From a virus, in IMG/VR virus record IMGVR_UViG_3300003323_000294, positions 1 through 21,491 of that record: a stretch of 21,491 bases of DNA. One strand, 5' to 3'. Each line of letters opens with the position of its first letter. Positions within the stretch are counted from its first letter, which is position 1. This document shows, in pieces, positions 1 through 19,933 of this stretch. The translations under genes were made by a program, and so were the position numbers. The notes beneath the pieces were generated by a model, which searched no databases, was not told the origin of the DNA, and saw only the letters and a list, made by a program, of their open reading frames with translations.

Positions 1-14
1 GGGTGGCTTTGTGC

Positions 15-23
15 GAGACCCCT
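15..23 (+). repeat. GAGACCCCT repeat in left-end leader
   Basis: Plus-strand copy of the 9-mer, 31-39 bases upstream of the plus-strand ORF start, followed by a C-run and AGTCTAA. The -10 region of any promoter for it would lie at or beyond the window edge. Confidence 0.5.
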
Positions 24-53
24 CCCCCAGTCTAAGGGACTCGTGGAGGACCC

Positions 54-226: not shown

Positions 227-496
227 TCAAACTTCTATGTCGCTAGTCACAGGTTTGTCAGCTGGCAAGGTGACCTTCTTGTAGAACCCGCCGCTTTCGT
301 TTACAATCTCGTCAATCGCTGCCTCGATAGCTAGACTTTGATCGGCATCGGACAGCTCGTCTGATGTCCTCACTACACGCCCAAGATACGAGAGTGTGTT
401 GTAGCCAGCTGCTTGATCCCACACGAGCCACTCTTCGAACTGAAGTACTGGATCGTATGGGTTGTCCACTGTGGTGAGCATGTGTTCATCCATCAT
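227..496 (-). CDS. Conserved small phage protein, 89 aa
   Basis: The ATG overlaps the TGA of the RNA-polymerase-like gene (ATGA overlap), so translation is probably coupled and the product may work with that enzyme. The sequence DNPYDPVLQFEEWLVWD followed by AGYNTLSYLGRVVRTSDELS and an acidic helix resembles a short conserved phage protein family that I recall without an assigned function. It is soluble, acidic, and has no cysteine pairs or membrane segment. It is the last gene of the leftward operon; the hairpin at 113-180 lies downstream. An accessory or transcription-factor role for the polymerase is inference from position only. Confidence 0.85.
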   Translation of the reverse strand: MMDEHMLTTVDNPYDPVLQFEEWLVWDQAAGYNTLSYLGRVVRTSDELSDADQSLAIEAAIDEIVNESGGFYKKVTLPADKPVTSDIEV

Positions 497-3156
497 GCAT
501 CACCTTCGATTAGGCTACGTTTGAGTGTGGAGACTGAGATACCTAGTGTGTCTGCGACTTCGGCTTGGGTGTATCCGTTTCGAAGCATCGACACTGCACG
601 ACTCTTCTTAGAACCGTCCAGTAGGACCTGTGTCTTTGGCGTGGCCAGTTGTTTGACCTTGTCCAGATCCGCGTTGTTTAAGATCTGGGTTAATTTGTGG
701 TTCGTAATTGCACCGGCCTGAATCGCTTCCCACTGACGGGGGGTGATTTCGATCCTTTGTTTTCTGGCACCGGTTCTATTACGAGCTTCTGTAAGTGCTT
801 GTGCTTTCAACTTCTTGATTTCGGAAGGTTCGAGATCTGGATTGGCAGCCTTCTTCTGACTGACAATGGAGTTGGCTATAATCTGAGCCTGACGTTCGAG
901 AGGACTGTTCCTAAGAGCTAGGTTCAGACTAGCCTCTAGATCTTTTACTTCTTCCGCATACTTGAGTTTTGCTTCTGGCGAGTAAGGAATCGTCGAGGTC
1001 GATATGGCTTCCAGCCTGGCTTGGTTAGCCAAAGCCTTTAGTCTATTGGAATGATCGGCGTAGATCTTCTCAATAGGCATACCTGATGACAAAGTGTGAG
1101 CATCATCGGTCTCGGCCAACTTGGTAGAGTTGACAGTCCTTACTACAGTCTTTCCATTCTTGGTGTATGTCGCGCCTGTGGGCTCGAATACTTTCTTGCC
1201 AGTGGCTCGATCGATTGGTCCGCCATCTGCGGCAGAGCGAGCCTTCCTTTCAGGGACTCGAATGTCGGAAGATGCTCTCGAAATCAGGGTTGAGGCGCCA
1301 GCTTTCTTACTACCCTGATACTTTTCTTTGAGCTGCGCGATTCCATTATCAATCGCTGATTGCTTCCAATTGAGTCCATGCTTCTCAGCATCGATGACGA
1401 CCATTGAGTGCCGAACTGCTCGGGCAAGCTCGGACGCTGTTGCACCACGAATGGTCATGTCGGTGATGAGATTGGAAACTTGGCCCATCTCAGTTGCTTT
1501 GGCTTTGGCTGACATCTTTGTCATGCCTTCGTAGCCTGGATAGGCACGCTGAGGATCAAAGCCTTTTAGGCCTTCCAAAGCAGGTGCGGTCTTGATCTTC
1601 CGATTGTTGTTCGGAATGACAAGAACAGTATCCCCATCAAAGTCAGCACCAGACAAACGCTGAGCGACGTTGCTATGAATACCAATTGCATCTTTTGCAT
1701 TGCCGAGAAGCTTTTTGGCTTCGGGGTGTCTGTTGTTTACTGTCAATTCTGGAATCTCGAAGATCCCGCCATGCGGATAACGAACAAGAACAACTCGCTC
1801 GCCATCACGGAAGTTTGGTGCGTATACTTCCGTTTCTCGCATGCTATTGATAGGAAGTATTACATGCGATCCTTGACGCGGAAGAGCAGCCGCCTTGAGA
1901 TGAACTGCTGACGAATCGGCATCGTCCGCATAGGTTTCAAGAAGCTTCTTCTTGACTGCGGGATTTTCAAGGCGAAGGATCTCTTCGAGTTCGTTTTTCT
2001 TGCGCTCATAAGCCAAATCCAATTGAGCCCTTGCAAGGGCTGGACTCTGCTTGGACAGCATTTGGGATGAGAGTGTCTTTGACCATCGTTCCCAATCGCC
2101 CTCCTCATTGACAATGTTCATCGCAGAGGTAAGCTTCTTGTTGCCGTCTCTATCGTATTCGCCGATCTGACGACTGATAGACGCGCCGAAAGGACTGTCT
2201 TTGTCATCCTTCATCGGCTTCATGGCATCAAGCTTGTTACCGGTATCATCTTTGTTCGTGTTGAACATCAAATCGACACCGGAAGGCAAATCATCCTTGT
2301 ACATCGCCATGCCCTTGAGGTAATGTGTGCCATCTACAGCAACACGAACCTGAGCATAGCGAGACGCCCCTAGCGAAAGATCTTTTACACCAGGGCGGAC
2401 GTAAATGACGCCGTCTGCATCAGCACCGCCATCTTTGGCATAACGAACAGCAATCCGCTTGGAATCCACCGACAACGGAGGCAAGATCCTATCATAGGAT
2501 CGACCGCCATCAGTAGAATAATTAGCGACTTGCTGGATGTTGTCACGATTCCGATAGACTTCGCCCCAAGTAGTACCAGGAGCAGCCAGTACTTTGACAG
2601 TCGTGTTTTTGCCAGTACCAAGCTGTTCTACTGGAACGGAATGAACAACGTAACCCTCATCTTGAAGTCTGGCTAAGGCGTTGTTCAACTTGGTTGAGCT
2701 GATACTTAGATGGCGTTCAACACCAGAACCGATGTCGACATACCCTTTTTCAGAGACAGCAGTTCTAAGCATGTCGGATGTAGCTTGAGTAACTCTTGCT
2801 TTATCCAACTCGCCTGGCTTTAGCAGAGCGCGAACTGAAGATTCGTTAATCCCCATGCGATTACCAATGGCAACATTGGAATAGCCTTTATCCTTCAGGC
2901 GTTGCGCCATGTTGATATCGGCTTGTTTCTTGGCTTGGTTCGCTATGGCCGTGGTGTTTCTTAATTCACTTGTACTTTCAAAGCCTAACCCACGGGCAAC
3001 CTCAGCCTCGCTAAGGCCTTTATCACGAAGTTCCTTCACACTACCCAGAAAAGTGCGAGCTCTCTCTTCAGGCGTTTCGCCCGAACCCCAAGGATATCGA
3101 CCAGATCTACGAAGAATTCCATAGTGAGCAAGGTAGTCTTCTTCACGCATCTCCAC
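493..3156 (-). CDS. Single-chain two-barrel RNA polymerase (YonO/crAss-like)
   Basis: Predicted DNA-dependent RNA polymerase in one 887-residue chain. The sequence SGADFDGDTVLVIP carries the DxDGD signature that binds catalytic Mg in the beta-prime-type double-psi barrel (Asp505, 507, 509). About 45 residues before it, ERVVLVRYPHGG sits where beta-prime has its NRxPTLHR strand. Upstream, near residues 275-300, HYLKGMAMYKDDLPSGVD is a candidate for the lysine-bearing first barrel. NLITDMTIRGATASELARAV follows the metal site. Helix-turn-helix-like segments lie near residues 44-65 and 83-112, a winged-helix-like stretch near 130-190, and another HTH near 854-883. The chosen start is GTG, 8 bases after GGAGG; an upstream TTG and an ATG two codons on are less well spaced. 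The family includes Bacillus SPbeta YonO and crAss-like phage polymerases. The family call is by motif; promoter specificity is unknown. Confidence 0.8.
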   Translation of the reverse strand: MEMREEDYLAHYGILRRSGRYPWGSGETPEERARTFLGSVKELRDKGLSEAEVARGLGFESTSELRNTTAIANQAKKQADINMAQRLKDKGYSNVAIGNRMGINESSVRALLKPGELDKARVTQATSDMLRTAVSEKGYVDIGSGVERHLSISSTKLNNALARLQDEGYVVHSVPVEQLGTGKNTTVKVLAAPGTTWGEVYRNRDNIQQVANYSTDGGRSYDRILPPLSVDSKRIAVRYAKDGGADADGVIYVRPGVKDLSLGASRYAQVRVAVDGTHYLKGMAMYKDDLPSGVDLMFNTNKDDTGNKLDAMKPMKDDKDSPFGASISRQIGEYDRDGNKKLTSAMNIVNEEGDWERWSKTLSSQMLSKQSPALARAQLDLAYERKKNELEEILRLENPAVKKKLLETYADDADSSAVHLKAAALPRQGSHVILPINSMRETEVYAPNFRDGERVVLVRYPHGGIFEIPELTVNNRHPEAKKLLGNAKDAIGIHSNVAQRLSGADFDGDTVLVIPNNNRKIKTAPALEGLKGFDPQRAYPGYEGMTKMSAKAKATEMGQVSNLITDMTIRGATASELARAVRHSMVVIDAEKHGLNWKQSAIDNGIAQLKEKYQGSKKAGASTLISRASSDIRVPERKARSAADGGPIDRATGKKVFEPTGATYTKNGKTVVRTVNSTKLAETDDAHTLSSGMPIEKIYADHSNRLKALANQARLEAISTSTIPYSPEAKLKYAEEVKDLEASLNLALRNSPLERQAQIIANSIVSQKKAANPDLEPSEIKKLKAQALTEARNRTGARKQRIEITPRQWEAIQAGAITNHKLTQILNNADLDKVKQLATPKTQVLLDGSKKSRAVSMLRNGYTQAEVADTLGISVSTLKRSLIEGDA

Positions 3157-3189
3157 GGGCAACACCTCCAATACAAGACTAGTTCTTTG

Positions 3190-4076: not shown

Positions 4077-4598
4077 TTACGAGGCGATGTAATATCTGCG
4101 ATCTTTCAAAGCTGATCGAAATTGCTGCTGAGTTGGCCACACGAAAGAGCTGTTGTTAATGGATAGCAAGACATCAACCATAAGCAATCCGAAAGTAACA
4201 GCTGCATGAAACGGATTGTCAAACCATTCTTTCGTATTCGCCTCCTCGACAGGATAATAAATTCCTTCTTGGATTTCTTCGAACTGCTGGAAATACTTGG
4301 TTGCAAACCAGCGAGGTCGCCACATCAAATTTGCGACATTGTTGTTGTGACGATCCCCATCGAGATTGATGAGGGAATCGAAGGCGTCGCTTGGACGACT
4401 CTTGATGAAAGCCGTCGCGACCAACCGAGCCACAGCGCGCTTGTACTGAACTCGATTCTTTGTGAGTCCGACATTGACTACTCCGCCCTGATTGACCAAC
4501 ATCGTCATCAGGTGACCATTGTCATCGTTCCTGACGTATCCGGTGTTGCTTACGGAGTATCCGGGGAAAGATTCTATCGGACGCCACTCAGTCGGCAT
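4077..4598 (-). CDS. NUMOD4/HNH-type protein with degenerate active site
   Basis: This 173-residue protein begins with a NUMOD4-like motif, EWRPIESFPGYSVSNTGYVR, typical of phage HNH homing endonucleases. It continues into an HNH-like core, VARLVATAFI then INLDGDRHNNNVANLMW. In active relatives the first motif usually carries His (VHRLV) and the second reads (V/I)NHIDGD. Here those positions are Ala and Leu, while the Asn-Asn and NL-W positions remain. It may be catalytically weakened or repurposed for DNA binding. The C-terminal part (WPTQQQFRSALKDRRYYIAS) is not recognised. The start has no convincing ribosome binding site. A palindrome at 4633-4649 lies just upstream. It interrupts the run between helicase and nucleases and may be a mobile insertion. 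Confidence 0.8.
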   Translation of the reverse strand: MPTEWRPIESFPGYSVSNTGYVRNDDNGHLMTMLVNQGGVVNVGLTKNRVQYKRAVARLVATAFIKSRPSDAFDSLINLDGDRHNNNVANLMWRPRWFATKYFQQFEEIQEGIYYPVEEANTKEWFDNPFHAAVTFGLLMVDVLLSINNSSFVWPTQQQFRSALKDRRYYIAS

Positions 4599-8430: not shown

Positions 8431-8841
8431 TTATCGGTTCCTCTCTCGAAACAAGACGCCTTCGTTTTGCATACGACTGATGAAGTCCGCAGAGGCGCTC
8501 ATGCTCATCCCATAATATTGGAGAGCCTTGAGGATCTTCCTCAGCGTGTCTTCGGTGGATACTTCTTGACGGCGAGCAGTGATCTCGATCTTTCGCTCAC
8601 GCTCGACCGAGTCCGTTTGAACAATGAAATTCAGATCGATGCCGAAGCTTTTGGCAACTTCGTCGTCGATTGAGATTACAGCGCGGTATCGATCACCGGC
8701 ATCCGTGACGACAGCCGATCCGATTCGCTTCCTCTCGTTCCCGTTCATCTCGAACAGAGGAACTGTGTGCTCGTTCGGTTCCATCGGAGCCCCCATGTAA
8801 GCCCAGAACTCGTTGGGAGGAAGTTCGTCGAAGTGATCCAC
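8431..8841 (-). CDS. GILFRERNR-tail paralogue 1, hypothetical
   Basis: This 136-residue protein is clearly related to its upstream neighbour. It shares YRAVISIDDEVAKSFGIDLN, a basic strand (KIEITARRQE), a helical TEDTLRKILKALQYY and the terminal MQNEGVLFRERNR. The shared C-terminus reads hhxxhxxxGhLFRERNR in both. The GTG start comes one base after the upstream TAG, and GAGAGG lies 10 bases before it. The function is unknown; it is soluble, without cysteines or a membrane segment. It is probably the product of a tandem duplication. Confidence 0.82.
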   Translation of the reverse strand: MDHFDELPPNEFWAYMGAPMEPNEHTVPLFEMNGNERKRIGSAVVTDAGDRYRAVISIDDEVAKSFGIDLNFIVQTDSVERERKIEITARRQEVSTEDTLRKILKALQYYGMSMSASADFISRMQNEGVLFRERNR

Positions 8842-8842
8842 G

Positions 8843-9220
8843 CTAGCGGTTCCTCTCGCGGAACAGGATTCCCGCGTTTTGCAAAGCGTCGATCACAACG
8901 CGAATATCGCTACGGAAGAACAAAGCCTTCTCCAAAGCGTTTCGAACCTTGTTCATCGTCTCGTCGGTGTGAGTCTCTTGAGGTTTGGCTATAATCTTGA
9001 GCTTCGGAATCGGGTTTGTTTCATCCGATGAAGAGACAACAGTCAGATCGATACCCAGAAGCTTCGCCGCCGCGTCGTCGATCGTGATCACAGCATTGAT
9101 ACCGTCTGCTGCGCCAACCGTGGTGATACCCACGCCGATGATTTTTTCCTCACCGGTGACTTCTGTGACTACCGGGGTTTCATACTCACCCGGAGGACGA
9201 TCCAAAGGATTCTTTGGCAT
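8843..9220 (-). CDS. GILFRERNR-tail paralogue 2, hypothetical
   Basis: A 125-residue protein starting MPKNPLDRPPGEYE; its ATG is two bases after the stop of the upstream gene (TGACCATG). An in-frame ORF extends upstream to 9472, but that part is Arg/Asp-rich low-complexity sequence lying inside the neighbouring gene in another frame, so it is not coding. The core AVITIDDAAAKLLGIDL, the KLKIIAKPQETHTDETMNK strand-helix and the tail ALQNAGILFRERNR match the following gene. Function unknown. Three adjacent genes end in this kind of tail. Confidence 0.83.
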   Translation of the reverse strand: MPKNPLDRPPGEYETPVVTEVTGEEKIIGVGITTVGAADGINAVITIDDAAAKLLGIDLTVVSSSDETNPIPKLKIIAKPQETHTDETMNKVRNALEKALFFRSDIRVVIDALQNAGILFRERNR

Positions 9221-9222
9221 GG

Positions 9223-10125
9223 TCAGTTGATCTTCTCGTGGAACAGAATCCCGTGGCTCTTGAGCGTGTCGATCAGGTGGCGCGACATCTCGTAGCTCAG
9301 ACCGCCGCTCTCCATCAATGCCAAAACCTTGGCGTTCGTGGCGCTGGTCAGAACCGGCTCGTAGAAGACCTCCTGATGGATCTTCTCGTACACGTCGACG
9401 TACGTCTCGCCGCTCTCGCCGTTGTACGTGACCTCGTAGTAGCGCTTGTCCGCCAGCGTCGTTCCGAGGCACGCCTTCCAGTTCTTCAGGGTCTTGCAGA
9501 ACCAGACGATGTAGACCTCGTACATCGGTCTCGGGTTGTTGATGAGGTCGGAGTCATCATCGACCACGGTCTTGACGGCCGCCTTGGCCTTCTCCTGGTA
9601 GTTCGCGTGGTTGTCTCCGGGCAGGACCTCGTCCTCGTACTTGTGGTCCGGATATCCGCCCATGTTCGGCCATCCCCTCTGGTTTCCCTTGACGATTTCC
9701 TGGATAAGCGTCGGATTGGGGGCTATCTGGAGTCGATTCCGCCGGATCAACTCGTCACCCTGGCGTCGCAGCTCGTTGATTTCTTCCTGCGGAATGTCCT
9801 TGTGGAACTTCTCGTACGTCGGCAATCCAGTGAGCGGAACTCCCTTGACGATCTCCATCGTACGCATGGGCTCGCTCTGATGACGGACCAAGTCGATCAT
9901 CTCGGTGTCGTTCAACGGGTAGTTGTAGCCGTCCTGCCACACACCGTCCCCTGAAATAGTGAAGCTCTTGTTCTCGTCGAACGGAGGCGGCTTCAAGGGT
10001 CCTTCAGCGATCTTCGGCATCTCCGCGGTCGCACCACCATCGAACGGAGGAAGACGCATGGGCCGGGTGTCCAGCAGGTCGTCCGTCTGGTACGCGTCTT
10101 TCTCGTCGTACGGACGCTCGTCCAT
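9223..10125 (-). CDS. GILFHEKIN-tail protein, 300 aa, hypothetical
   Basis: Starts at the ATG that lies 7 bases after AAGGAG (MDERPYDEKDAYQ). A GTG at 10230, overlapping the upstream stop as GTGA, would add 35 basic and hydrophobic residues with several rare AGG codons; it is an alternative start. The N-terminal half is Pro-rich and acidic with repeated PPFD (RLPPFDGG, KPPPFDEN), probably disordered or partner-binding. A globular part follows: EVYIVWFCKTLKNWKACL and RYYEVTYNGESGETYVDVY. The C-terminal LIDTLKSHGILFHEKIN resembles the ends of the next two proteins, suggesting a common ancestor or a shared docking tail. Function unknown. Confidence 0.78.
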   Translation of the reverse strand: MDERPYDEKDAYQTDDLLDTRPMRLPPFDGGATAEMPKIAEGPLKPPPFDENKSFTISGDGVWQDGYNYPLNDTEMIDLVRHQSEPMRTMEIVKGVPLTGLPTYEKFHKDIPQEEINELRRQGDELIRRNRLQIAPNPTLIQEIVKGNQRGWPNMGGYPDHKYEDEVLPGDNHANYQEKAKAAVKTVVDDDSDLINNPRPMYEVYIVWFCKTLKNWKACLGTTLADKRYYEVTYNGESGETYVDVYEKIHQEVFYEPVLTSATNAKVLALMESGGLSYEMSRHLIDTLKSHGILFHEKIN

Positions 10126-10226
10126 CGCTCGTCTCCTTAGACGATAGAACTCAAGTATGGGAAGAAACAGAGGGGCGAGAGTCCGGATGATCCTTTCCCT
10201 CGCCGTCCTCCGTCGTTTTGCGTGTT

Positions 10227-10550
10227 TCACTCGTAAACAGACCCCGGGATACGTAAGACACGTCTTCTGGGTTTTTCATGATCGAGTTCCCAGGCGGAAA
10301 CAATATCGAACCCGTGTTCAAACCACCCGGACAAGCCCTTAACGAGATACTCCATTGTCATCTCGTTATCGACGTTATCCAAATCCTTAGAGTACATCAC
10401 TATGGCGACAATCCTGTCATTCTGATAGACAGGCTGTACAAGCTCAAACATACACCTGTGATCCATGCGAATGTAATCTAGGACTCGCTGAACGAGATGT
10501 TGATTCTCTCCGCCAAGGAAGGATGTGATATGCATGTGCCTAAAGCTCAT
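10227..10550 (-). CDS. Hypothetical phage protein, 107 aa
   Basis: Starts MSFRHMHITSFLGGEN at an ATG 7 bases after AGGTGAT and a few bases after the upstream stop. The pattern of strands (CMFELVQPVYQNDRIVAIVM) and helices (NEMTMEYLVKGLSGWFEHGF) suggests a small alpha/beta protein. It contains WELDHEKPRRRVLRIPG near the end. I recognise no family. Its stop is followed by the long leader or alternative N-terminus of the GILFHEKIN-tail gene. Confidence 0.78.
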   Translation of the reverse strand: MSFRHMHITSFLGGENQHLVQRVLDYIRMDHRCMFELVQPVYQNDRIVAIVMYSKDLDNVDNEMTMEYLVKGLSGWFEHGFDIVSAWELDHEKPRRRVLRIPGSVYE

Positions 10551-12118: not shown

Positions 12119-12577
12119 TCACTCCTCATATTCATCGTCGGTAGGCTCACGACGAATTTCATCGTAGTAAGCATCCAAAGCCGTCAGACCCCACTCTTTC
12201 GAGATGGCGTCACAGAACGTGCGAAACTCTCGCCGAAGACGTTTGTGCTCTTCGGTTAAACCCTTGTCCTGAGTCTCTCGAACTTTTCTTCCGAACGATC
12301 GAGCAGTTGCTATGAGTGTTCCAACGGAAGGGTCGAGTTCGTATTGATTGACGACCTTGTATCGATCGACGTCCTTCACTACGAATCTTCCGCCACATGC
12401 AGCACATCCGAATTCTGTATTACATGCACAGTATCCGAACATACGCAGCCGGTGTAGAAGCTCTTTTGAAGATACGTCCTCTTCTATAGAGTCGAACACG
12501 AGTCCAAGCACGACGTATGCATCATTACCATTGAGTTGAACCCGTACGCCACGATGTTTTATTCGGTCTGGATTCAT
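12119..12577 (-). CDS. Hypothetical protein with CxC..CxxC zinc-like cluster
   Basis: A 152-residue protein with the cluster YCACNTEFGCAACGGRF near residues 49-65. The four to five cysteines are spaced like a small zinc ribbon. An N-terminal beta part (VRVQLNGNDAYVVLGLVFD) precedes it, and a charged helical C-terminus (EEHKRLRREFRTFCDAISKE) ends in an acidic tail. The ATG overlaps the upstream TAA (TAATG). Zinc binding is inferred from spacing; a DNA-binding or regulatory role is possible but unproven. Confidence 0.8.
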   Translation of the reverse strand: MNPDRIKHRGVRVQLNGNDAYVVLGLVFDSIEEDVSSKELLHRLRMFGYCACNTEFGCAACGGRFVVKDVDRYKVVNQYELDPSVGTLIATARSFGRKVRETQDKGLTEEHKRLRREFRTFCDAISKEWGLTALDAYYDEIRREPTDDEYEE

Positions 12578-12774
12578 TATAGTTCAACATTCTGAACATA
12601 TCCGACAGAGTACGCCATGACAGCAACGTCCTGCCAAGCAATCGGAATTCCGGTGAGCAAAGAGTCCCAGGACAGGTGGTTCTGATCGATACCAAGAACG
12701 TCGTTACTCTTCTCTAACTTGGCAAGCGATCTGCCAAGAAGCATTGCTAGCTTCAAAACGTCATGGAGTCTCAT
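12577..12774 (-). CDS. Small helical protein coupled to DNA polymerase, 65 aa
   Basis: The ATG overlaps the polymerase stop (ATGA), so it is translated right after the helicase-primase-polymerase and might assist it. Reads MRLHDVLKLAMLLGRSLAKL then LTGIPIAWQDVAVMAYSVGY; hydrophobic and helical but without a clear membrane-spanning stretch. I recognise no family. Confidence 0.75.
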   Translation of the reverse strand: MRLHDVLKLAMLLGRSLAKLEKSNDVLGIDQNHLSWDSLLTGIPIAWQDVAVMAYSVGYVQNVEL

Positions 12775-15700
12775 TTCACAAACTCCGTGAAATCGCCGAA
12801 CTTCTCGATGGTCTTCATCGCATCATCGACCAGCCGTTCGTAGTAACTGAGGTCAATGACGTCCGTAATGAAACCGGGCTCGCTACCACTCCAATGAACC
12901 AGCTCATCGAACGACCAGTTGATCAGATCGAGGTTCATCTGCCGAACCATCTCGGCTTCGAGCCAGAAGTGGCCCTTCGTACCGGTGACGGCGTAAGGCT
13001 TTTCGTCCCGAACCACAACAAGTTTGGCGCCACCAGCGCTTTTGTGGACCGGAACGAACATACCCGTTCGACCCACGAACTGCATGCCCTTGTCGGGCGT
13101 GTTCGGCGTTGCCTCGGACTCGTTGAAGTCCAGGTACATAGCCGTAGGAGCCTTTACTTGCTTGGTCTCACACAAGTCGTTAAACGTGATGGGATCGCCA
13201 CTGAACAACGCCTTGAAGACCACCGGGTGTTGGAACTGCGCACCGACGGCATCCCACTTCTCGCCCTTGCGAGCGATGTACACGGCGTCGTTCACAAGAC
13301 AGAACTTCTCGTATGTCGTCTCGTGCTCGAAATCGTAGCCGTACTTCTTTCCGAATTCCGTCACGAATTCGATGATCTCGGGTGTGGCATTCGGAATCTT
13401 GATCGAGTCCGTCTTAATGTGGACTACCTTGAATCCCTTGGCCTGCACCGCGTTCTTCAGGTCGATCATGAACAATGCGCCGCGCTTGGCAGCGATGTTG
13501 TCCTTGTTCCTCGGATCGCGGAACGGGTTGTCGAACTTCGCCGAGGTAAGACCGTAAACGATGTTGATTACGATCTTCAACGCATAAGCAAGCGCTGTTG
13601 CATCGTCATCCGAGCCAAGGTAAGGGGCAAGGATTCCGTTGAGCATTTCCCTGGCTCGATCGTAATCGTGATGCTTGATCGCGACTCTTGCAATCTTGAG
13701 TGCTGAGAAATTATCTGTATAAGGACCAAATAGATCCAGCATCTCGATGGACGTAGGGTGCATGGACGCGACATCCAACACTGCGACCTGAGAATACATT
13801 CCCGGTTCTGCATAGACGTAACCTCCTTCCCCGACCTCTTCGCCCCGGTATGTACTCTTTCCAGAATCATATACATACCCCGGAAATTCCTCACTCAAGT
13901 CCGTGTAGACGAACTTTTCCTGAGGCCGTCGATCGTTGCCGAAGATGATCTTCGCAGTGTGCTTCTGCGTCGTGTCGTTGACCGTAAGACCGCTTAACTG
14001 CGCCAGGATCTGGCGAGCTGCAAAGTCTTGCTTGCGGTCCTTAAAGACCGCCTCAGTGCCGATGACGTCGTTGACACAGTACTCTACGACCTTTGGCCAA
14101 AGTTCTTCTGGAACATCCTGATCCCACGGAAGATCCATCTCCATGTGATGTAGGCCCAGATCAATCATGAACCGCTTCAGGCTCTTCTTAACCGAGCTGA
14201 AGTCGTAGATGTCGGCATAGGAAGCGTTGTACGCCTCACCGAACATCGCGCCTTGGTTACCAGCGATGATCTTCTTCGAAAGTTCGTAGAGTTGGCGATT
14301 GTCATAACCCATGAAGCGAGCCCACAGGATGTGGTTGTCGTATCGCCGGTTGTTGAATCCCACGATCTTAAGCTGAAGAACACCTTCAATCTCCTGCGCC
14401 GTGGGGTTGATCATCCGAACGACAGTGTCGCTGTCCTCGTACTTCCAGCAAACCACGAAGAGATTCGGGTAAACCTCGACATCAAAGAGGACTACACGAC
14501 CATCCTTGGGCTTAACGTTCGCCATTTCCTCGCCGACTACTTCGCCTTCGGACTTGAACTTCATCCGTTGGACGGTCTTAAGACAAGTCAGCGCTTGGTT
14601 CGTGCTGTTGTTGGCGAACGCCATGATCTTCGGACGCATATCCGTCACGTCGTAGACGATCCCGGAGTTGTACGCATCTTCCAGAATCTTCTCGATGAAA
14701 TCAACGGACGGCTTGGTTCCCGGGTGGATCTCCTTGCGCAGGTTTCGCATAATCAGTTCTCGCAGTGCCTTCTCGCTCTGGAGAACCTTCGTGTCGAGCA
14801 TCGTTTTTTTCTCCTTGAACGGAAGACCGCTACTGATTGTAGCGATTGCCACCCCGTTGCATTTCGTCAGCCGTCGACGAAGGGCGCTGTTTCCGGGGAA
14901 GGTTTTGATCTCGATCCCATCAGAATATCCAGCTGCCAGCTCTCCGGGATCACCCCCATCATAGAAGTAATGAAGGTGAACGCCTCCTCCCGACTTACTG
15001 AGCTCGGCATAAGTGGCAGGCCATGCACTTGCCGCCTCAAGGTTTCTCTCAAGGGATTTCTTGCCATCATCGTCCTTAAGATCGAAATCGATGACGATGT
15101 GATTCTTCGGGACCTTAACGAAATGGACGCGCGATGTATCCAGATCACCGAGAACCGACGTAACCTTCGACCACACTGTCGCAGGCACGTCGTCTGGAGT
15201 TCCATACTGCGCAGGAAGTCCAGCATACATCTCGTCAAGAAGCGACGTCGTCTCATCCAAGACCAGGGAGAAAGTCTTGGAATCAAGAGTTATCGGCATC
15301 TTGAATCGCTGAATGTCGAATCCCTTGAAGTAGCTTCGCATCGTTGCTCCGTCGATCACAATTCGATCGTGGAACTCCGTGAAGTAGTTTCGAAGCTCAT
15401 CGCGGAACCTGTACATAGGAAGTTTGTACTCGATATTTGCTTCGAGACAGTATTCCTTGTACAAGGTGTACGCTTGCTTCAGGGTTGTACCGTCCTGCTC
15501 CTTGAAGATGTCGTAGTATGCTTCGACGAAGTTCAGGAATACATCCGTCTGAAGCATCATCTCCATGGGTCGATAGGTGTTGTAGTAATTCTTACCCATC
15601 GACTTGTATACTTCGAGACAGTGATGTGCGATTGCTCCGAGCTCGAAGTCGATTCGCGACATCAGCGCATAGTAGTGGTCTGGGTCGAACTTTTTTCCCG

Positions 15701-16589
15701 TGGGGACCACATCGATAAGACGACGAATAAGGCCGGACTTGGCGTCGGTGATCTTTACCGGCTTGTTCGTCCCCATGAAGAGGAAGGCGTTAATTCGAGA
15801 AGTGTACCCAGCCTTGTACTTCTCGTTGATCAGCATCTCCTCATGAGACACGATCGAGTTCAACTTGCTGTTGTCGTCGATCTTCGACAAGTCGCCGTCG
15901 TGTTGGATCGCAACCAACGGGTTGGACTTGAAGACCTCAGTTGAGAACGAGTTGTTGTTGCCGACCAGAGCCTTGGCATCAAACATCGCTGTATAGCCTT
16001 CAAACAGCTTCTGAATGATGATAAGGATGGTGGACTTACCGGTTCCGCCTGGCCCGTAAAACACCAAGAACTTCTGCAAATTCTTCGAGTCCCCAGCGAT
16101 AACGGAACCGATAGCCCATTCGATTTTTGCTCGTTCTTCTGGTGAGTAAAGGAAGCCGACTAGCTCATCCCACGCTTTGCAATCCCCGGGGGTGAGAGCG
16201 TAAGGAAGTCTGCGGCTAGCGTAGTCCTTCTTCTTCACTTCCGTGTTGGCGAACGTCAGTTTCGTGTCCAACTGATGCGAGTTGTCGCTGACGTTCTTCA
16301 AGAACTTCTTGAACTGGTTCCAACGGTTCGTTTCGTAAGAACGGAGGAGTTTCGCGCTGCACGGTACTCCGTTGGCCTTGAATTTCTCGGTGAATCGTAG
16401 AACTTCTTCATCCACCAAACGGCGAACATCATACTCGTCGGTAGACCAAAGCCCGCGTTCCTCGTCCCACACCGCATAGAACGACTGACCACGGACCATG
16501 AGGTCCTGAGACCTACCGACGATGAAGTCGGGGTAAATTTCCGTGACACCACCCCGAGCCTCTTTCGTGCAGATTTGAAAGAAATCCAT
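12771..16589 (-). CDS. SF3 helicase - primase-like - family B DNA polymerase fusion
   Basis: One 1272-residue replication enzyme. Residues ~150-340: SF3/D5-type helicase (DUF5906-like) with Walker A GPGGTGKST (179-187), an acidic HDGDLS element (230-235) and a sensor MGTNKP near 272-277 followed by GLIRRLID. Residues ~475-595: archaeo-eukaryotic-primase-like region with VIDFDLKDDDGK (Asp501, Asp503), SKSGGGVHLHY (His538, His540) and GIEIKTF (Glu560). Residues ~697-850: proofreading exonuclease with FDVEVYP (Exo I, Asp703/Glu705), FNNRRYDN (Exo II, Asp751) and YCVNDV (Exo III, Asp841). Residues ~930-1180: family B polymerase with DVASMHP (motif A, Asp939), KIVINIVYG (motif B) and IKTDSI (motif C, Asp1061; the usual first Asp is Lys). 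The ATG follows GGAGGG; a TTG just before it is unlikely. It should unwind, prime and copy phage DNA. Confidence 0.93.
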   Translation of the reverse strand: MDFFQICTKEARGGVTEIYPDFIVGRSQDLMVRGQSFYAVWDEERGLWSTDEYDVRRLVDEEVLRFTEKFKANGVPCSAKLLRSYETNRWNQFKKFLKNVSDNSHQLDTKLTFANTEVKKKDYASRRLPYALTPGDCKAWDELVGFLYSPEERAKIEWAIGSVIAGDSKNLQKFLVFYGPGGTGKSTILIIIQKLFEGYTAMFDAKALVGNNNSFSTEVFKSNPLVAIQHDGDLSKIDDNSKLNSIVSHEEMLINEKYKAGYTSRINAFLFMGTNKPVKITDAKSGLIRRLIDVVPTGKKFDPDHYYALMSRIDFELGAIAHHCLEVYKSMGKNYYNTYRPMEMMLQTDVFLNFVEAYYDIFKEQDGTTLKQAYTLYKEYCLEANIEYKLPMYRFRDELRNYFTEFHDRIVIDGATMRSYFKGFDIQRFKMPITLDSKTFSLVLDETTSLLDEMYAGLPAQYGTPDDVPATVWSKVTSVLGDLDTSRVHFVKVPKNHIVIDFDLKDDDGKKSLERNLEAASAWPATYAELSKSGGGVHLHYFYDGGDPGELAAGYSDGIEIKTFPGNSALRRRLTKCNGVAIATISSGLPFKEKKTMLDTKVLQSEKALRELIMRNLRKEIHPGTKPSVDFIEKILEDAYNSGIVYDVTDMRPKIMAFANNSTNQALTCLKTVQRMKFKSEGEVVGEEMANVKPKDGRVVLFDVEVYPNLFVVCWKYEDSDTVVRMINPTAQEIEGVLQLKIVGFNNRRYDNHILWARFMGYDNRQLYELSKKIIAGNQGAMFGEAYNASYADIYDFSSVKKSLKRFMIDLGLHHMEMDLPWDQDVPEELWPKVVEYCVNDVIGTEAVFKDRKQDFAARQILAQLSGLTVNDTTQKHTAKIIFGNDRRPQEKFVYTDLSEEFPGYVYDSGKSTYRGEEVGEGGYVYAEPGMYSQVAVLDVASMHPTSIEMLDLFGPYTDNFSALKIARVAIKHHDYDRAREMLNGILAPYLGSDDDATALAYALKIVINIVYGLTSAKFDNPFRDPRNKDNIAAKRGALFMIDLKNAVQAKGFKVVHIKTDSIKIPNATPEIIEFVTEFGKKYGYDFEHETTYEKFCLVNDAVYIARKGEKWDAVGAQFQHPVVFKALFSGDPITFNDLCETKQVKAPTAMYLDFNESEATPNTPDKGMQFVGRTGMFVPVHKSAGGAKLVVVRDEKPYAVTGTKGHFWLEAEMVRQMNLDLINWSFDELVHWSGSEPGFITDVIDLSYYERLVDDAMKTIEKFGDFTEFVK

Positions 16590-16602
16590 CAACCCTCCTT
16601 CC

Positions 16603-19741: not shown

Positions 19742-19879
19742 TTACTCCTTGTTGTCGAAGTGCTCGTCGATCTTGTCCTCGACCTTCTTCTCCACCTTCA
19801 TCGTGTAACCGATGGCGGCAGAGACAGTAAGGCCAAGGGCGAGCTTGACGACGTTCTTCACAATCTTGGGGTTTTTCAC
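19742..19879 (-). CDS. Small membrane peptide, 45 aa
   Basis: GTG start preceded by GAAAGG and, about 25 bases upstream, a TATAAT box. Reads MKNPKIVKNVVKLALGLTVS followed by AAIGYTM, one weakly hydrophobic transmembrane helix, then a Lys/Glu/Asp-rich tail (KVEKKVEDKIDEHFDNKE). It is followed by an intrinsic terminator, so it may be its own transcript. Function unknown; size and layout resemble the small membrane gene at 18860-19006. Confidence 0.72.
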   Translation of the reverse strand: MKNPKIVKNVVKLALGLTVSAAIGYTMKVEKKVEDKIDEHFDNKE

Positions 19880-19904
19880 GGCGGTGCCTTTCGATAGGGG
19901 TCTC

Positions 19905-19910
19905 ATTATA
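19905..19910 (-). promoter_or_regulatory. Candidate -10 box (TATAAT) before 45-aa gene
   Basis: A perfect TATAAT reads leftward, directly followed by GAGACCCCT, a motif that recurs in this window. No good -35 is seen at 17-18 bases (TAACTC). On the plus strand the same bases form the loop of an AGGGG/CCCCT hairpin followed by TTTTTT, which could end plus-strand transcripts. Confidence 0.5.
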
Positions 19911-19933
19911 GCCCCTGTTTTTTCTGCGAGTTA

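Follow-up and report, generated by a model that had tools for sequence, protein, structure and literature searches.

A predicted single-chain RNA polymerase of phages from Arthrobacter to Lactococcus, with an N-terminal tag and a linked promoter-like element

Among the closest described systems, YonO of Bacillus phage SPbeta is a single-chain RNA polymerase with its own promoter for late genes (PMC5467207), and P23-45 gp96 is a virion polymerase fused to the tape-measure protein (PMC10770324). A further enzyme, gp66 of the crAss-like phage phi14:2 (6vr4), is a single chain with two barrels and is virion-packaged according to its PDB title. Here, these systems are compared with a gene in the IMG/VR virus record IMGVR_UViG_3300003323_000294; the window is the whole stretch of DNA analysed, 21,491 nucleotides (nt), positions 1 to 21,491 of that record. 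The gene (493..3156) encodes a predicted single-chain RNA polymerase with two double-psi barrels, built-in helix-turn-helix (HTH) units and a short N-terminal tag, and a promoter-like element of about 35 bp recurs in the phages that carry it. The gene, its parts and the element in the window all lie on the minus strand. The preferred reading, a sigma-independent, virion-carried, DNA-dependent early-gene RNA polymerase with its own promoter, is considered slightly better than an even proposition when all of its steps are taken jointly.

The open reading frame (ORF) 493-3156, as called in a preliminary description of this DNA, holds: it encodes 887 amino acids from a GTG start at 3156, with GGAGG at 3169-3165, 8 nt ahead of it. 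This start is preferred over the alternative TTG at 3171 because of that spacing and because the TTG overlaps the GGAGG. Residue numbers refer to the 887-residue protein; alignments and models were made on an 892-residue version, in which numbers are 5 higher. A PHROG profile search gives a full-length match to phrog_4291 (1372 bits, E 0), which pairs residues 6-889 with profile positions 4-907 of 909. A tblastn search of the annotated phage collection with the polymerase yields 251 phage records, 249 of them with coverage above 80%, from phages of Arthrobacter, Gordonia, Streptomyces, Lactococcus, Rhodococcus, Curtobacterium, Microbacterium and Faecalibacterium, and hundreds of further relatives turn up when viral contigs and bacterial genomes are scanned, Clostridia prophages among them. 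The family is thus already catalogued at the sequence level (PHROG 4291), under the name ‘RNA-dependent RNA polymerase’ in PHROGs and RefSeq and ‘helix-turn-helix DNA-binding protein’ in most actinophage records; the literature searched contained no paper studying a phrog_4291 protein. The novelty therefore lies in the system around the polymerase, and both the repeated element linked to it and the N-terminal tag related to DUF7211 are new with respect to that literature, in which no description of the element was found.

The AlphaFold2 model was built from 98 aligned sequences, taken from the window and the loci. Its mean predicted local distance difference test score (pLDDT) is 86.7 and its predicted template modelling score 0.77, with residues 1-37 disordered. 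The whole two-barrel core (1003..2484) is held by one chain. The top Foldseek matches of the model are QDE-1 (E 4e-9), followed by P74 gp62 and P23-45-type gp64 (E 2e-7), and the cellular beta-prime and Rpb1 chains rank lower (E 2e-3 and above). VIA-align of model residues 227-725 gives Z 16.2 for QDE-1 (360 residues, 4.3 Å), Z 12-16 for RDR2 and Z 12.5 for P74 gp62 and P23-45-type gp64. The QDE-1 alignment comprises 355-360 residues in the model range 230-725 at 3.9-4.3 Å, with the second barrel covered only within the whole core. Taken alone, the DFDGD stretch (423-519; model 428-524) matches isolated double-psi barrels (7dg9) and Rpb1 barrels with Z of about 10, so that the barrel context proposed for ADFDGD in the preliminary description stands.

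The codons of the predicted metal-binding loop DFDGD, with D505, D507 and D509, lie at 1630..1644; the Asp507 singled out earlier is the middle one, and all three aspartates are kept in 251/251 full-length relatives. The upstream YLKGM segment, also pointed out before, is present at 2308..2322, with K281 and G282 (model K286 and G287) invariant across the 98-sequence alignment; by analogy, K281 is a candidate for the lysine of the first barrel. Sequence and profile searches of the PDB returned nothing useful for the core, the best profile matches being designed helical repeats and HTH chains; the DFDGD stretch did, however, match the tape-measure polymerase of P23-45 (8h2n) at E 0.64. No RNA polymerase beta or beta-prime domain is among the 21 Pfam families listed up to E 10. 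Fold, motif and conservation together give good support to the proposal of a single-chain RNA polymerase that has two barrels and HTH domains of its own; a polymerase fold with an intact metal site is almost certain.

The HTH segments at both ends and the winged-helix-like stretch, likewise proposed earlier, are recovered by Pfam, PHROGs and the model. In the N-terminal HTH-HTH-winged-helix module (2572..3060), PHROG HTH families match residues 71-111 at E 2e-8. The model shows helix pairs there at roughly residues 36-56 and 94-111, followed at roughly 122-191 by the H-E-H-H-E-E order of a winged helix. Modelled alone, this module reaches a pLDDT of 89.6. At the other end, the C-terminal HTH (505..615) matches Pfam HTH_23 with 27.7 bits (cut-off 24.6) and appears in the model as three helices, 848-884; HTH_23 is also above cut-off at the N-terminus of the CHPC971 homologue. 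Fold searches with the N-terminal module return generic HTH and winged-helix proteins only (Foldseek E 0.2 or worse; VIA Z 5 to 7.7, a level usual for unrelated models), and because these matches are modest, generic and below Z 8, the module is assigned to no specific family. Arthrobacter phage Qui, which also encodes the whole polymerase, has in gp87 (L395:10677-10961) a free copy of the polymerase winged helix, 95 residues long, that could be a competitor or regulator at the promoter.

Ahead of the first HTH, the disordered N-terminus carries the tag LAHYGILRRSGRYPWGSG, encoded at 3079..3132, which the preliminary description had missed together with its pointer to the virion. The form LxHYGxxRxSGRYPWGSG stands at the N-terminus of 234/251 full-length relatives, and several of the remaining polymerases have longer variants such as LMHYGVGKLDGSPGRGSGRYPLGSG. 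Within 260 polymerase loci, 152 copies of the motif L-x-H-[HY]-G-[IV]-x-G-[MQ]-[KR]-W-G are spread over 40 or more small, unrelated proteins; every copy is encoded on the same strand as the polymerase, and most lie near the N-terminus. This motif is Pfam DUF7211 (PF23847), to which Pfam assigns no function, and genes tagged with it flank those of the terminase and portal in nine cultured phages. In an unanchored genome scan, DUF7211 proteins are above cut-off in 31/31 long polymerase contigs scanned. Among the sub-threshold matches listed, 12/12 fall on polymerase-sized frames (890-946 codons), and wherever the polymerase of a contig had been located, the match is its N-terminus. The polymerase tag, at 12-15 bits against a cut-off of 27, therefore appears to be a diverged form of DUF7211. 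An hhalign comparison of DUF7211 tags with polymerase N-termini gives 81% over 11 columns; as an H-x-G pattern had served to select the sequences on either side, the unanchored scan is relied on instead. In locus L142, a non-polymerase protein weakly similar to DUF7211 cargo families bears the polymerase-type tag.

In Lactococcus phage 1706 (EU081845), the polymerase homologue orf75 is deposited as ‘structural protein’, as is gp7, which has two DUF7211 tags, and the ReqiPoco6 record repeats the label. The literature searched gave no match for GMKWG with phage, nor for virion proteomics of 1706. The tag relationship and the one deposited annotation suggest, with somewhat more than even confidence, that the polymerase is carried in the virion.

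Other DUF7211-tagged proteins include 2'-5' RNA ligase or LigT-type proteins, one of which faintly matches anti-CBASS Acb1, and a papain-fold glutamine-deamidase-like protein (L058:9369-10280, L262:5942-7501 and L105:1185-2105); such cargo would be in keeping with anti-defence or effector proteins delivered by the virion. The LxH of the tag also has a look-alike in the linkers of protease-capsid fusions (L098 gp10, L082 gp9 and five more complete fusions in L263-L268), in several of which it stands directly ahead of the capsid part. The count is small, and LxH might be a prohead protease site.

The alternative that survives best keeps the enzyme and the promoter and removes the virion: the polymerase would be made after infection from a transcript read by the host, for middle or late genes. 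Precedents for this exist in YonO and P23-45 gp64, and in actinophages the polymerase gene adjoins helicase, VRR-Nuc and Cas4-like exonuclease genes of replication and recombination. The disordered tag, akin to that of head-module proteins, and the ‘structural protein’ label of 1706 orf75 speak against it, as do the element copies of phage RosaAsantewaa, which precede small genes ahead of the replication block and not structural genes. A non-virion enzyme is accordingly rated unlikely, though it deserves serious weight.

The promoter-like element has the consensus TCGCA-N6-ACA-N4-C-TATAAT-GAGACCCC in most actinophages, with the variant end GAGAACC in some Arthrobacter and Microbacterium phages, and is repeated before small, presumed early genes in every carrier phage examined. 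In RosaAsantewaa, it occurs six times in intergenic stretches among small genes, between the tail/lysis and replication genes, and lies 15-20 nt upstream of the start codons in the five sites aligned by the motif finder. When the 110 nt preceding small genes were given to a de novo motif search without prior knowledge of the element, the element or its counterpart emerged in the Streptomyces phages RosaAsantewaa and Bing, Gordonia phage Conley, DizzyRudy, FP_oengus and Lactococcus phage 1706. The log-likelihoods are 145-285 in these phages and 78-104 in shuffled sequence. The top motif of the finder in Xenomorph is a terminator and not the element; a pattern search finds six copies there. The window holds the copy CTCGCAGAAAAAACAGGGGCTATAATGAGACCCCTAT at 19894..19930, with a position weight matrix score of 56.1, and 15 nt behind it a small ORF of 45 amino acids with a GTG start (19742..19879), read from the sequence. 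Three further copies lie beyond the window on the same contig, at 23037, 23697 and 24129 on the minus strand; the four score 41-56 where no shuffle exceeds 6, and their hexamer is TATAAT in three and TATAGT in the other.

The element of phage 1706 is gCATnTTTTACATAnACTATAGTAGAAAG, and that of FP_oengus is ACGCGAAAAnnnCAnnnTnCTTTATGGAA. CGC or GC, CA and the hexamer thus keep one register in actinobacterial, Lactococcus and, with T-T-ATG, Faecalibacterium phages, that is, across two bacterial phyla. At a genome end (window 1-40; right end of L082), GAGACCCC / GGGGTCTCGC corresponds to the downstream half of the element, near the presumed cos end.

The link between element and polymerase was approached from both sides. 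A scan of 2.9 million viral contigs was made for the core pattern ACANGNNCTATAATGAGACCCC alone, which fixes the hexamer and leaves TCGCA out. The polymerase is encoded in 28/30 long viral contigs picked in this way. The remaining two appear to be truncated: one breaks off just after the helicase gene, which comes before the polymerase in this gene order, and in the second the helicase is missing as well. In 132 distinct sites, TCGCA is found at a fixed distance with per-base conservation of 96/99/99/94/82%. In the reverse test, a stricter form of the element occurs in 19/24 polymerase contigs and in 0/24 of the backward control.

Among 50,697 phages, blastn matches of two element versions were compared per genus with tblastn matches of the polymerase, giving 55/55 for Gordonia, 54/54 for Streptomyces, 95/95 for Arthrobacter, 4/4 each for Rhodococcus and Microbacterium and 12/12 for contig89; these totals agree as counts, not as record-by-record identity, and are not independent events because many phage records are near-duplicates. 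By blastn, the element is found in 8/13 polymerase carriers of Lactococcus and 0/7 of Curtobacterium, and a few short matches of E 0.9 or worse fall in Aeromonas, Vibrio, Bacteroides and Cellulophaga. Qui, an outlier in the motif list with its 113 kb, also encodes the polymerase. The computed co-occurrence and shared register make it quite probable that the enzyme is DNA-dependent and uses the element as its promoter, and the HTH units are plausible readers of it.

TATAAT also serves the host as a hexamer, so the strongest rival reading of the element itself is use by the host RNA polymerase, helped by an activator of the phage. The element would then be a sigma-A promoter without a -35 box, aided by an activator on TCGCA, and the polymerase would do another job. 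TATAAT is a perfect host -10 hexamer and occurs in most copies. Across the 132 distinct sites, however, there is no TTGACA at spacers of 15-19, with a mean of 0.5-1.9 matches of 6, so that the -35 box is absent at every normal spacer. In RosaAsantewaa, the downstream GAGACCCC is more constant than the hexamer; FP_oengus has T-TTATG for TATAAT, yet keeps CGC, CA and ATG in register; and the element tightly co-occurs with the polymerase. A host promoter is consequently regarded as distinctly improbable. Initiation without a host sigma factor, as put forward in the preliminary description, gains indirect support from the linked element, the register shared by two phyla and the missing -35 box, but sits less well with a hexamer that is mostly TATAAT.

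The RefSeq and PHROG name raises the possibility of an RNA-dependent RNA polymerase (RdRP), copying, for example, phage or host RNA. The best solved fold matches, QDE-1 and RDR2, do copy RNA (QDE-1 also DNA), and the QDE-1/RDR family Pfam RdRP PF05183 matches weakly, at E 0.008 and 15.3 bits against a cut-off of 23.8. The same fold nevertheless includes DNA-dependent phage enzymes, the protein has several DNA-binding HTH units and a linked promoter-like element, and we know of no RNA stage in these double-stranded DNA phages; this function is very unlikely. A DNA-binding regulator with a dead polymerase core, which the ‘helix-turn-helix DNA-binding protein’ label of most actinophage records might suggest, is scarcely credible given the three aspartates kept in 251/251 relatives and the retained core invariants.

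The virion-carried polymerase with its own promoter would work as follows. The disordered N-terminal tag would load the polymerase into the virion, from which it would enter the cell with the phage DNA and start early transcription. All or some of the HTH units at the two ends would read the promoter TCGCA-N6-ACA-N4-C-TATAAT-GAGA(C/A)CC, holding TCGCA and perhaps ACA, while the barrels would open the DNA at TATAAT and initiate near GAGACC. The two double-psi barrels would synthesise RNA by means of D505, D507, D509 and a lysine, and the early genes would be transcribed as many short units.

Several points weigh against this proposal. The strict element pattern is missing from 5/24 polymerase contigs, three of the five being fragments of 25-29 kb. 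Shared ancestry within one phage lineage, and not recognition, could explain why element and polymerase occur together, to which it may be countered that intergenic sequence otherwise diverges and that the hosts differ. The hexamer is TATAAT in most carriers, where host RNA polymerase and a phage activator could use the element. On the virion side, the polymerase tag scores low against DUF7211 and has mainly LxHYG in common with it, and the ‘structural protein’ label of 1706 orf75 is known from the deposited annotation alone. Finally, the ‘early’ status of the small genes comes from gene position alone.

Around the polymerase gene, the small gene phrog_4303 (227..496, minus strand) overlaps the polymerase stop by 4 nt. 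It follows the polymerase in actinophages and in Lactococcus phage 1706 alike, the same gene pair being found as RosaAsantewaa gp54-gp55 and 1706 gp75-gp76. Its product has no Pfam match and is a candidate polymerase partner. At 12771-16592 (minus), the window encodes a 1273-residue helicase-primase-PolB replicase of phrog_4210, whose counterpart by position and annotation is GP55 of phage 1706, which a 2025 study established as a four-in-one replicase (PMC12205980). The ORFs at 8431-8841, 9223-10230 and 12119-12577 (minus), together with ORF 8843-9472, have pieces of PHROG 19392 / DUF6275 in common, and their proteins end alike (...GVLFRERNR, ...GILFRERNR, ...GILFHEKIN), looking as after tandem duplication. 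A NUMOD4 homing-endonuclease-type gene at 4077-4598 (minus) adjoins the recombination genes, and a run of N within an ORF at L260:4491-4500, on the window's contig, is an assembly gap outside the window.

If the proposal is true, more than 240 phages already in culture hold an unrecognised transcription system, in which an enzyme of about 100 kDa, independent of sigma, acts with its own promoter in phages of Streptomyces, Gordonia, Arthrobacter and Lactococcus. It would offer a small orthogonal polymerase-promoter pair for actinobacteria and a simple model of promoter finding by single-chain two-barrel polymerases. It would also give the orphan motif DUF7211 a concrete candidate function, virion loading, and the labels ‘RNA-dependent RNA polymerase’, ‘HTH protein’, ‘tail fiber protein’ and ‘excise’ would need correction. 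Both the polymerase-promoter and the virion ideas are testable in cultured phages. The broadest form of the proposal, in which a large lineage of small siphophages of Gram-positive hosts carries a free, HTH-equipped, two-barrel polymerase in the virion by means of a short modular tag, which would load many unrelated DUF7211 cargo proteins too, and serves it with a dedicated early promoter of one register in two bacterial phyla, stands evenly balanced between true and false.

Compared with known systems, the nearest relatives are the family itself, phrog_4291, with 1706 gp75, ReqiPoco6 gp47 and the actinophage ‘HTH DNA-binding domain protein’, which have the same neighbours and the same small gene behind them. 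DUF7211 shares with the polymerase tag the LxH[HY]G start, the place near the N-terminus and the phages, but continues GMKWGVRR where the polymerase tag continues RxSGRYPWGSG. QDE-1 and RDR2, the best fold matches (Z 15-16 over about 355 residues, about 15% identity), are cellular eukaryotic enzymes with a role in RNA silencing, whose Pfam RdRP cut-off the phage polymerase does not reach. The non-virion P23-45 gp64 and P74 gp62 share the two-barrel core (Z about 12.5), gp64 with only about 595 residues. YonO is likewise a single chain with D-x-D-G-D, and the likeness to it raised in the preliminary description appears at the profile level, where its family phrog_8308 weakly matches the DFDGD barrel (E 0.005), but not in a direct sequence alignment, which gives nothing significant; YonO has no Pfam domain of any kind, hence no HTH detected, whereas the polymerase here has HTH units. 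The match of the model to phi14:2 gp66, a chain of 2166 residues, is weak (Foldseek E 0.012), and P23-45 gp96 takes its virion route inside the tape-measure protein, where a separate tagged protein would be used here. Unlike YonO, gp96 and phi14:2 gp66, the predicted enzyme is a free-standing tagged polymerase with HTH units of its own, in siphophages of 43-60 kb.

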